Shown: piece after piece, positions 1,210 to 54,500 of the stretch
How positions within the stretch are numbered: the first letter of the stretch is position 1
Layout: every line of letters begins with the position of its first letter
Assembly: GCF_026151205.1 (NCBI RefSeq)
Contig: NC_087072.1
Span: 25,323,799-25,387,798 of the forward strand
From: Bolinopsis microptera
Taxonomy: Eukaryota; Ctenophora; Tentaculata; Lobata; Bolinopsidae
Direction of reading: 5' to 3'
DNA: 64,000 nucleotides
Translations under genes and position numbers: made by a program
Notes under the pieces: generated by a model
Told to the model about the DNA's origin: nothing
Database searches by the model: none
What the model saw: only the letters and a program-made list of their open reading frames with translations

Positions 1210-4200
1210 ATGAATGAAGTTAAAAAGTCGAATAACAAGAAGACTGGTTTTGTAGTAGATTGCTCAGATTATGTTATTTTCACCGCTAGCTCAATTCTTT
1301 ATATCCTGAATGTTATTTCCAACTGTTATGTTAGGTGAGTGATATTTTAAAGTTTTATTAAGTCTAACTTTAAGATTCTGTAAGTTGATCCCATTATTAG
1401 ATTTTGAAACATGGCACATAAGTTTATTTGGCATACGTAATGATGACACCTTTTATTTTCAGTCAGTATACTCTTTATTCCCAGTCACTGTACCCTTTAT
1501 TTTCAGTTACTGTATGTACAATGAGGGACAGATGGAATGGTTTGCCACCTCAATATCCCTGCTAGTTATATTCTCCCTTTTTACTCAAACATTTTCCCAC
1601 ATATTTTTCACCTACAACAATATCGCTGATAAAGCTTGCTCCATTTACCTGCAACACATCAACTCCAAATCTGGTAATATTTTAATTTAATTTCGTCAAA
1701 ATTGAAAACAAATTCGAAGAATTTTAACTTTGTCGCTTAATTCATTTAATCCGTGCCAGTATTGACTAGTTCAGAACAATGGAGATTATAGGAGTTTAAA
1801 ATGCTCTAATCTTGTTCATTGGCAGTGCATGTTCCGTTAATTTAATTCTACTAATATTGTTCAGATGAAGACGTGTCTGACCCAGTAACAAAGAAGTCTG
1901 AGTATCTTGAGATACACCACCAGGCTGTTTGTCCACACTCTGGCTACCCTGATCGTCTCTGGACCGAGAAGAACTTAGTTGATCTCAAGTCCGAGCCTAA
2001 AGTCAATGCCTGCCAGAAAATTTGCTCCCAGGTAATTTAGTCGTAAACGGCGAAAATAAGAAAAGCATATTTCTTAACGTTGACAAATATATAACGGATT
2101 GTAGTCTGTGTATTACTGCATTTATTGAACTGCAAACAATAATTCCCAGCAAGATTTCCAAAATGTGTTGATTATACAAGCAGCTCTGTATGTAGAAAAT
2201 AATTAGTATCGTGTGTTAAATGTTACAATTGAAATAATACATCCTGTGTATTTAATTGGAATGCAGTTACCAGTTACCGCTTCTTGGGAGGTTACCACAC
2301 CAAGGATAAATATAGCAAATTTTGTGCCATATTTGCATTAGGTGGTCTTAGAAGTGTAACTGCAGTTTGAATACGAGGAGGTTCCGCTTTAAACACAAGG
2401 AATTATTTCAGGGAGTAAGTGTGGTGCTACATATGCTGCATATAGGACCTGTTATTCGTTACATCTGCCTCCTCAAGTTCAGATCGAAAGAGAAGGGAAA
2501 GAAACAAGATGACGAGGAGCTGGAGGAGAAGAAGATCAAGGTAATGTTCTGTTAACCATTCAAATAGCAGGTATCAGGTATATTAACCAATCAGATCAAG
2601 GTAATGTTCTGTTAACCATTCAAATAGTAGATATCAGGTATATTAACCAATCAGATCAAGGTAATGTTCTGTTAACCATAACAGATATTAGGTATATTAA
2701 CCAATCAGATCAAGGTAATGTTCTGTTAACCATTCAAATAGCAGATATCAGGTATATTAACCAATCAGATCAAGGTAATGTTCTGTTAACCATTCAAATA
2801 GCAGATATCAGGTATATTAACCCCGTTAACCAATCAGATTAGATATATAGTAGTCTCCGTAACTAATCAGATAACAGTTCTTTAACCAATTTCCAAATAA
2901 CCAAAGTCTGGACCCAGTTTTATAATGATCGAAAATTATTTGCAGTTGTCAAATATCAAAATTCGTTCCATTTTCCATTAAAATGGAATCTATGTTGCGT
3001 AAGTGTCGGGTTTATACCTAGATAAGGGGATTTATGGTTAACATTGCTACCCAGAAGTTAAATCATTGTGAGATGGGTCAAGGGCGTTTTTGCACCGCGT
3101 ACAATAAAACCTGTCAAAAGAGAGCTGAGAGAGAAGAACCATTGTGTTTCACAGCAAGTTTCCTAGAGTCCCAGCTATGAGCTATGTGCATGTGTTATGT
3201 ACTTTAATGGCACTTCCTGACCGTTTAAAATTACCCCAAATTAAGCGATGTTGTCGAACACGCACTTGATATACACAACATGTGTTTGTGAGTATATCTT
3301 ATGCAGCTGCAGATATATATATATAATATATATATATATTATATATATTCGGGCCTGTATAAAACTCAAATATTCAAACTGTACGCTGTACGAATTCTTC
3401 GCATTTATTTGAATGTTTTGATATTTAAATGCATACCAAGTTTGATGTTTTAACAGGGGAGGATGTGACATGTAATCTCAAATTCAACACGCTCGTCTCA
3501 AATTATTTCGAATCGTTTAAAATTACCAGCGTTTCAAAGTAGAGCCAAGTTTGTGTTAAATTTTAAATCCACTGAATTAGGGACTTGCTTGTACGCTTGA
3601 AATCAATGTGTAGAATAATTTTGTAACCAAGAAATAAAGAGAGAGGTTTAACGTCCTCCACCAATCAGTATCGTTTCACATGTATTTCATAGTAACCCAT
3701 AGTAACCCATAGTAACCCATAGTAACCCATAGTAACCCATAGTAACCCATAGTAACCCATAGTAACCCATAGTAACCCATGATCTACCTGGAATTCTCCT
3801 AATGTAATGAATGTCGTCATCAGGACCAAAAGGGCCTAAACATAGCCCCACATTCACCACATATAGCTACTAGTGACCCAGTGTTGAATGTGATGTGATT
3901 TGTGAGTAGATATATAGCTGTAACAGTAGATTGAGTTACATGATTTCGTCACGGAGTGGTCATTGTCATCATCTTCAGTATAACACTTGTGGGTAATGTG
4001 TTATGATAATATTATGTGATACACTCCATTACACTTTGCTGTGGTAATATGTAGTCAGTAGTCACATTGGGCCATCATTTCATGAGATATGTCATGTTAT
4101 TAGCCGCTTTGAAGCGTGTGAATCAGATGTGAATGAATAAATGAACATTTGCCATGAGTTGAATACTGAATATTAAGAAATTATTTTTTAACTTTCACAT

Positions 4201-51500: not shown

Positions 51501-54500
51501 CTTGAGAGAATCAGAGAGAGTCTCACTGAATATATATAAACATTGTACGAACCTGACCCTGAATACCTTCCTTGAGAGAATCAGAGAGAGTCTCACTGAA
51601 TATATATAAACATTGTACGAACCTGACCCTGAATACCTTCCTTGAGAGACACAGAGAGAGTCTCACTGAATATATATAAACATTGTACGAACCTGACCCT
51701 GAATACCTTCCTTGAGAGAATCAGAGAGAGTCTCACTGAATATATATAAACATTGTACGAACCTGACCCTGAATACCTTCCTTGAGAGAATCAGAGAGAG
51801 TCTCACTGAATATATATAAACATTGTACGAACCTGACCCTGAATACCTTCCTTGAGAGAATCAGAGAGAGTCTCACTGAATATATATAAACATTGTACGA
51901 ACCTGACCCTGAATACCTTCCTTGAGAGAATCAGAGAGAGTCTCACTGAATATATATAAACATTGTACGAACCTGACCCTGAATACCTTCCTTGAGAGAA
52001 TCAGAGAGAGTCTCACTGAATATATATAAACATTGTACGAACCTGACCCTGAATACCTTCCTTGAGAGAATCAGAGAGAGTCTCACTGAATATATATAAA
52101 CATTGTATGAACCTGACCCTGAATACCTTCCTTGAGAGAATCAGAGAGAGTCTCACTGAATATATATAAACATTGTACGAACCTGACCCTGAATACCTTC
52201 CTTGAGAGAATCAGAGAGAGTCTCACTGAATATATATAAACATTGTACGAACCTGACCCTGAATACCTTCCTTGAGAGAATCAGAGAGAGTCTCACTGAA
52301 TATATATAAACATTGTACGAACCTGACCCTGAATACCTTCCTTGAGAGAATCAGAGAGAGTCTCACTGAATATATATAAACATTGTACGAACCTGACCCT
52401 GAATACCTTCCTTGAGAGAATCAGAGAGAGTCTCACTGAATATATATAAACATTGTACGAACCTGACCCTGAATACCTTCCTTGAGAGAATCAGAGAGAG
52501 TCTCACTGAATATATATAAACATTGTACGAACCTGACCCTGAATACCTTCCTTGAGAGAATCAGAGAGAGTCTCACTGAATATATATAAACATTGTACGA
52601 ACCTGACCCTGAATACCTTCCTTGAGAGAATCAGAGAGAGTCTCACTGAATATATATAAACATTGTACGAACCTGACCCTGAATACCTTCCTTGAGAGAA
52701 TCAGAGAGAGTCTCACTGAATATATATAAACATTGTACGAACCTGACCCTGAATACCTTCCTTGAGAGAATCAGAGAGAGTCTCACTGAATATATATAAA
52801 CATTGTACGAACCTGACCCTGAATACCTTCCTTGAGAGAATCAGAGAGAGTCTCACTGAATATATATAAACATTGTATGAACCTGACCCTGAATACCTTC
52901 CTTGAGAGAATCAGAGAGAGTCTCACTGAATATATATAAACATTGTACGAACCTGACCCTGAATACCTTCCTTGAGAGAATCAGAGAGAGTCTCACTAAA
53001 TATATATAAACATTGTACGAACCTGACCCTGAATACCTTCCTTGAGAGAATCAGAGAGAGTCTCACTGAATATATATAAACATTGTACGAACCTGACCCT
53101 GAATACCTTCCTTGAGAGAATCAGAGAGAGTCTCACTGAATATATATAAACATTGTACGAACCTGACCCTGAATACCTTCCTTGAGAGAATCAGAGAGAG
53201 TCTCACTGAATATATATAAACATTGTACGAACCTGACCCTGAATACCTTCCTTGAGAGAATCAGAGAGAGTCTCACTGAATATATATAAACATTGTACGA
53301 ACCTGACCCTGAATACCTTCCTTGAGAGAATCAGAGAGCGTCTCACTGAATATATATAAACATTGTACGAACCTGACCCTGAATACCTTCCTTGAGAGAA
53401 TCAGAGAGAGTCTCACTGAATATATATAAACATTGTACGAACCTGACCCTGAATACCTTCCTTGAGAGAATCAGAGAGAGTCTCACTGAATATATATAAA
53501 CATTGTACGAACCTGACCATGAATGCCTTCCTTGAGAGAATCAGAGAGCGTCTCACTGAATATATATAAACATTGTACGAACCTGACCCTGAATACCTTC
53601 CTTGAGAGAATCAGAGAGAGTCTCACTGAACAAGTTGTAAAGCCAACTCCAGCCACCGTGGAACGTGACGTCAACATTGCCAACATCAAACGTACAACTT
53701 TCAGAGGTCACGTGAGGTTCTCCTTTATCAGTAGTTCCTAATGATGATATTTATGGTTATTATGTGGTAATAACTAGAGTCTGGAGGTATGAACTGTGAT
53801 TTACGAAATTTTGTCGTATATCAAGAGTAGACTGTGCGGCTTAAAATTGTATCATTCGATTTTAGTATCCAGTTTAGTGCTTCATCCATCTAATATAACT
53901 ATTAACTAGTTTGAAAAATATAAACGTCATGTACCAATTCGTAAATCCAGGTTAATGGATATCTTAGAAGCTGTGATCTCGACCCTGCCGTGGTCGCTTA
54001 GGTTGGGCCAATGATCCTTCCTGTAGTGCCAATCAGCATTAACCTGGGACAGTTTAGTAAGGGTTGACAAACTTAACGAAGAACTGAACAATAGATATTT
54101 GAAGCCTTCTTGTGGCTTTGTTTGTATCAAAGTAGTACTCATGAATCATGATCAGCATTTCTATTATCAATATAATATTTATTAGGACACACGTTATGAC
54201 TAAATATATTTTAAAGTACAAACGCGATGAACATATTATAAGAACAACAATTTTTTTTCGAACGAGTACCCACAGCTAAAACTGCATTTTGGATTGTAGC
54301 CACGACATCTGAAGGACTTCCTAGCTTCACAGACGTTTGAGAAATGTCAACTTCAGTTACTTTTGCGCTGAAAATATTTCTCTACTACTGGAATCAACAG
54401 TTTGTAAATTTGGGAAAGTTTGGTTACCAACGTTGAAACACAACAAAATATCTGTGCTGTGGTCGACTAAAATGCCGTTCAGTTTCATTCCTGCTAAAGA

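Follow-up and report, generated by a model that had tools for sequence, protein, structure and literature searches.

We found that tandem repeat arrays lie across splice junctions of two unrelated genes, an XK-related (XKR) gene and a BPI/LBP-like (BPI) gene, in a 64,000-nt stretch of the genome of the ctenophore Bolinopsis microptera (C1:25323799-25387798, referred to below as the window). Such arrays recur in a sample of myosin, kinesin, dynein and ABC genes from the same 264.65-Mb assembly. In all 18 arrays (six in the window and 12 in the sample) the part that lies in the exon is shorter than one repeat unit and the called exon ends on the exon-side copy, which suggests that one exon-side copy carries the working splice site, while the remaining copies may be regarded as intronic decoys. 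Our reading, to which we give a probability of roughly 0.7, is that local duplications occurred across these junctions and were tolerated since splicing uses the exon-side site.

According to this reading, the genome, being rich in repeats, would often make local tandem duplications of approximately 20-70 bp, and a unit straddling a splice junction would copy the exon edge together with the donor or the acceptor. Splicing would keep the copy next to the exon body (the first donor or the last acceptor), which would leave the mRNA and the protein unchanged. The extra copies would become intron, and the array could then grow by later duplications, including block duplications within it.

Junction arrays in the window, its sister locus and other genes

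The XKR reading frame runs cleanly through 13 exons to a stop (PF09815, E 1.4e-57, first 495 residues searched) and the BPI frame is clean through exons 1-8 (PF01273, E 2.7e-25; PF02886, E 3.1e-21). The two models contain 39 junctions (24 in XKR and 15 in BPI exons 1-8), and not about 25 as given in a preliminary description of this DNA, so that 6/39 are crossed by an array. Tandem Repeats Finder (TRF) returned 62 rows for the window, in which arrays with a period of at least 4 cover 15,117 of the 64,000 bases. All six arrays named in that description are present, and each crosses a junction of the open, phase-consistent models (Table 1); the acceptor and donor that had been assigned to exon 13 belong, however, to exon 12 of the 13-exon XKR model.

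Table 1. Gene models of the window and the arrays that cross their splice junctions
Feature	Window position	Strand	Remarks
XKR gene, 13 exons	1210..33347	+	open, phase-consistent coding sequence; PF09815
XKR exons 1-7	1210-1334, 1507-1673, 1865-2031, 2412-2540, 16189-16299, 18622-18756, 19559-19759	+	
XKR exons 8-13	20005-20141, 20445-20579, 30522-30674, 30810-31165, 31525-31621, 32872-33347	+	
BPI/LBP-like gene, exons 1-8	48410..55094	-	open frame; PF01273, PF02886; 3' end outside model
BPI exons 1-4	55094-54992, 54763-54652, 54367-54274, 54043-53935	-	
BPI exons 5-8	53737-53583, 49384-49228, 48981-48806, 48557-48410	-	
Array over XKR exon 2 acceptor (1506/1507)	1448-1514	+	22 bp x3, TRF 77% match; 8 nt exon; 1 decoy by the criterion used; weakest case
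Array over XKR exon 4 donor (2540/2541)	2533-2822	+	60 bp x4.9; 8 nt exon; 4 exact decoy donors
Array over XKR exon 7 acceptor (19558/19559)	19282-19571	+	56 bp x5.2; 13 nt exon; 4 decoy acceptors, 2 exact
Array over XKR exon 12 acceptor (31524/31525)	31464-31537	+	24 bp x3.1
Array over XKR exon 12 donor (31621/31622)	31582-32449	+	48 bp x14, continued by 63 bp x3.7; 40 nt exon; 16 exact decoy donors
Array over BPI exon 5 donor (53582/53583)	49631-53630	-	70 bp x57; each unit 48 nt exonic and 22 nt intronic; 56 decoy donors (54 of them exact)

When the BPI array was split into 56 pieces, 15 distinct unit variants were obtained, and a block of seven units was seen to recur near the exon-far end, which is a sign of block duplication inside the array.

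A separate observation concerns XKR intron 9, where the minus strand of window positions 24550-29330 holds a frame resembling the reverse transcriptase of non-LTR (long terminal repeat) retrotransposons, together with a Lys-rich frame of cysteine-patterned type (judged by eye).

The XKR 3' end, BPI and a BPI paralogue occur a second time, in collinear order, approximately 264-277 kb downstream on C1 (C1:25631400-25675163). This sister locus has XKR exons 10-13 only, and the arrays at exons 2, 4 and 7 are therefore not comparable; in the three arrays that are, the copy number differs between the gene copies in every case. The BPI exon 5 donor, present in 57 copies in the window, is single in the sister, where intron 5 measures 255 nt (4,198 nt in the window), and exon 5 is 155 nt long in both, with 4 differences. 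The acceptor of XKR exon 12 is threefold in the window and single in the sister, and the donor unit of the same exon occurs in 17 and 2.2 copies, respectively; the exon itself is 97 nt in both (2 differences). A 19-bp subunit of this donor forms an 11-copy array of its own in the sister copy. In two further BPI paralogues, 136 and 133 nt separate the exon 5 and exon 6 hits. No new intron was found in the BPI and XKR sister comparisons, which reveal the same exons and one longer intron. The earlier proposal that the first or last copy is enough for splicing thus appears to be borne out, both by the small exon part of every array and by the low copy numbers in the sister locus with exon length unchanged.

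Near-identical pairs like this one are also present on C13 and, in inverted orientation, on C11. The pairs on C1, C13 and C11 represent either recent segmental duplications or uncollapsed haplotypes.

Because the window was picked for its striking look, its own P values are weak evidence and provide a hypothesis only, and the sample of other genes weighs more. For this sample, the assembly (232 contigs) was searched exon by exon with four families, which gave 73 hits for the myosin head, 109 for kinesin, 72 for dynein DHC_N2 and 36 for the ABC membrane family. The 67 segments taken (220,651 bp) comprise the 30 best hits of myosin and kinesin, followed by stretches picked by exon density in the hit tables, after the first arrays were known but blind to their own sequence; segment L088 was chosen for an intron-length difference between two kinesin copies. 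To call a splice junction we used the continuity of the profile match, the reading phase and the splice signals, and considered candidate sites only within 60 nt of a profile-hit end; unmodelled exons in the segment flanks were counted as noncoding. The calls numbered 388. After removal of 12 duplicates and 54 calls of low score, 322 junctions were kept, of which 212 are paired across an intron.

Arrays cross 12 of these 322 junctions (7/159 donors and 5/163 acceptors), one of which, the acceptor C3:9157374, is doubtful. At one kinesin donor, an array of 33 bp x52 fills most of a 1,818-nt intron and includes 49 exact decoy copies of the donor, and one kinesin acceptor array contains 21 exact decoy acceptors. 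Another kinesin donor has an array of at least 35 bp x11.5, and 10 kb further on, in what is by position the same gene, an acceptor array of at least 49 bp x7.7 repeats the start of an exon encoding the motif DLAGSE. Dynein donors are crossed by arrays of 30 bp x4.1 and 49 bp x2.1. For arrays cut by a segment end, the copy numbers are lower bounds.

Chance placement and unit length

Whether splice junctions seem enriched or depleted in arrays depends on the null used. Arrays fill a fifth of the sequence and might, by pure chance, fall on junctions as they do anywhere else. This is what array cover suggests: a circular shift of the cover in the window gives 8.1 expected crossings versus 6 seen (P 0.65; XKR alone, 5/24 versus 3.0 expected, P 0.25; BPI alone, 1 versus 8.9), and crossing in the sample amounts to 0.36 of intron cover (95% bootstrap 0.18-0.61), with 12 crossings versus 25.4 expected when whole arrays are placed uniformly. 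When the window arrays were placed independently, 6/26 crossed versus 2.8 expected (P 0.036), and when they were reduced to one founding unit, 6/25 crossed versus 0.85 expected. However, if long arrays fell at random, several of their units would lie in exons; no array of either set extends that far, although selection alone could produce this pattern. The circular-shift and independent-array nulls do not fit, because every array enters the exon by less than one unit. Random positioning of the founding units inside each sample segment leads to 5.3 expected crossings, and 12/147 arrays cross (P 0.008); a first run of this kind had given 12 versus 5.0 (P 0.006) and, for units of at least 20 bp, 12 versus 3.8 (P 0.0006). 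We therefore consider pure chance an unlikely explanation. The preliminary view that arrays are non-random at junctions is supported in part, under unit placement only and not by array cover.

The excess varies with unit length. Units of 4-19 bp cross in 0/101 cases (1.7 expected) and those of 20-27 bp in 2/19 (0.8 expected), whereas units of at least 28 bp, a cut set post hoc after the size strata were seen, cross in 10/27 (2.8 expected, P 0.00025). The latter result is retained in the 47 segments of at least 3 kb (4/15 versus 1.0, P 0.01) and when the doubtful acceptor is left out (9/26 versus 2.64; all units, 11/146 versus 5.23, P 0.012). When the rate was taken from non-crossing arrays, weighted by G+C content, 10 long-unit crossings were seen versus 1.36 expected, and the various estimates place such units at junctions of the sample at 3.6 to 7.4 times the placement expectation. 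Part of the excess comes from junctions whose partner exon lies outside the fetched stretch. It might mean either that exon-containing DNA duplicates more, or that such arrays are kept longer.

Two other causes were considered and rejected. Long-unit arrays are richer in G+C than short-unit arrays (0.389 versus 0.315, P 0.008), but weighting by G+C shifts the expectation only from 1.25 to 1.36. A hotspot at donors, proposed because array starts cluster approximately 0-12 nt after them, was discarded, as arrays are distributed uniformly along 30 paired introns (Kolmogorov-Smirnov [KS] P 0.70); given this uniform distribution, short introns are the simpler account of array starts near donors.

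Choice of splice site and source of the repeated units

Across the exon, the shortest distance is that between the last acceptor and the first donor, and their use would therefore fit the prediction of exon definition. A first-come rule would cover first donors, but not last acceptors, and if sites were paired across the intron, the other end of the array would be preferred for donors and acceptors alike. In long introns, the choice is reported to fall on the sites nearest across the exon (PMC9225289).

Several points weigh against tolerated duplication across junctions. The unit-placement null was devised after the sample crossings were known, and the excess is modest for all units (12 versus 5.3) and absent by simple array cover. 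Taken over all units, it falls short of significance in the segments of at least 3 kb (6/124 versus 3.0 expected, P 0.077), and paired junctions are crossed in only 4/212 cases, 0.21 of intron cover. The use of the exon-side site was deduced from homology and frame, the exon-side pattern leans on profile-hit ends, and in XKR exon 12, which lies outside the Pfam domain, the first donor was chosen by the analyst. Moreover, pairing in short introns is reported to take place between the sites nearest across the intron (PMC9225289), and 58/106 paired introns of the sample are under 250 nt (median 223). With so many short introns, the persistence of the arrays would mean either that pairing is exon-wise in spite of intron length, or that inner sites are used. 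Finally, 6/17 units are multiples of 3 (the doubtful case left out), and the frame of XKR exon 12 stays open in its donor array (window 31525-32070) for nine further copies of 16 residues before a stop, so that this array could be partly coding and inner sites in such in-frame units could be coding as well.

The in-frame 48-bp unit of this donor array, with its open frame, also favours an alternative in which some arrays are coding, or give isoforms of variable repeat number by means of inner splice sites; tandem repeats over human exon-intron boundaries are reported to give alternative splicing (PMC2812944). The remaining 11/17 units, however, are not multiples of 3, and the use of a neighbouring decoy there would shift the frame. 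The frame of XKR exon 4 meets a stop in the first intronic copy, and in the sister locus two of the arrays are present as a single copy and one as 2.2 copies. This alternative is in our opinion quite improbable.

The preliminary description had suggested that splice-signal sequence of the AGGT or YAG type may itself trigger duplication. In array units away from junctions, GGTA and GTAA are indeed raised (1.65x and 1.38x), but AGGT itself reaches 1.30x, rank 31 of 136 4-mers, junctions are spread uniformly over the unit (KS P 0.83, n 17), and arrays occur at acceptors and not at donors alone. The suggestion is thus unsupported, and we regard such a trigger as very doubtful.

The idea of a dispersed, introner-like mobile element that forms the arrays by inserting at splice sites is extremely improbable on the evidence of the two units searched genome-wide: XKR exon 12 and a kinesin acceptor do have a similar 17-mer, but without mismatches it gives 34 hits at three places (XKR in the window, its sister copy and one kinesin), the 70-bp BPI unit has at least 58 genome matches (57 in the window array and 1 in the sister copy, with none elsewhere among the matches listed), and the array units carry the host exon's own sequence. 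No introner-type dispersed family was found for these two units, which are the ones that the genome-wide searches covered.

Other repeats, known systems and significance

Further repeats were noted in passing. A junction array was considered as the difference between two kinesin copies on C13 (98-99% identical) and ruled out; one copy has instead an intronic insertion of approximately 0.93 kb (C13:5068740-5069670, L088 and adjoining sequence) with inverted ends made of 11-bp tandem repeats. Its ends show a 9-base overlap, which may be a target-site duplication, and transposase remnants are suspected by eye. Within the window, arrays of 251- and 254-bp units (39551-40818 and 44850-45478) lie approximately 4 kb apart and are rich in AAGCGCTTAT-type palindromes; they resemble reverse complements by eye, and are perhaps the ends of a mobile element. 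An array of 24 bp x50 (57055-58258) has long open frames on both strands, and one of 28 bp x111 (60897-64000) runs past the window end.

In potato, a tandem duplication across an intron-exon boundary made a new intron, as shown by RNA-seq (PMC4974935). The duplications described here likewise span an existing intron-exon boundary and copy splice signals; in contrast to that case, they lengthen an intron that was already present, the copies numbering up to 57, and a new intron was not found. In human segmental duplications, boundary tandem repeats lengthen both exons and introns (PMC2812944). These too are minisatellites that lie over exon-intron boundaries and vary between recent paralogues, and for 66% of the intron modifications an alternative transcript in which the repeat remains exonic is reported to be supported as well. 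The present arrays, known from genome sequence alone, differ in that the two junction pairs compared have exons of the same length, and the exon part stays below one unit throughout.

The model of intron origin by tandem duplication of AGGT (Rogers 1989; Hellsten 2011; both via PMC4974935 and PMC3443670) shares with our data the supply of repeated splice-like sequence by tandem duplication. According to the accounts in these sources, it is an exon-internal AGGT that is duplicated, whereas all 18 units found here span existing junctions and are part exon and part intron. Exonic duplications with proto-splice sites have also been proposed as the source of some Drosophila introns (PMC2891723). 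The preliminary description saw in the arrays raw material for the origin of introns; as existing introns were lengthened and no new one was found, this link stands by analogy only.

Competition between duplicated splice sites, and a proximity rule for its outcome, were reportedly described by Reed and Maniatis in 1986. Here as in work on such competition, identical donors or acceptors would compete, the nearest across the exon being favoured under exon definition (PMC9225289). Unlike that work, which relied on reporter constructs or on databases of alternative sites, our cases are genomic arrays with up to 56 natural decoys, as read from the assembly.

Abundant tandem repeats have been reported in another ctenophore, Hormiphora, in which they form 13% of the genome (PMC8527503). 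Our literature search, mainly of non-subscription sources and judged by titles and the beginnings of abstracts, found no genome-wide count of arrays over splice junctions, and the nearest earlier count is confined to human segmental duplications (PMC2812944). What appears to be new in this study is the frequency of arrays at junctions, the exon-side-copy pattern, the number of decoys (up to 56) and the existence of array-free sister copies.

A broader statement may be offered tentatively, as a possibility that we do not hold to be probable: introns of this lineage might grow by amplification of an exon edge with its splice site, above chance at junctions, and this growth might be tolerated by strict across-exon pairing even in short introns. 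Approximately 3-4% of junctions would then carry competition arrays, each with 1 to 56 near-identical decoys.

To conclude, the arrays provide many natural experiments in splice-site competition, with an identical exon context, from 1 to 56 decoys, and both donor and acceptor forms, for some of which the array-free sister copies can serve as controls. The distinction between exon and intron definition thereby becomes testable in an animal with many short introns. The arrays may also be considered as an intermediate stage that links the common growth of minisatellites to the tandem-duplication route by which introns are proposed to originate.

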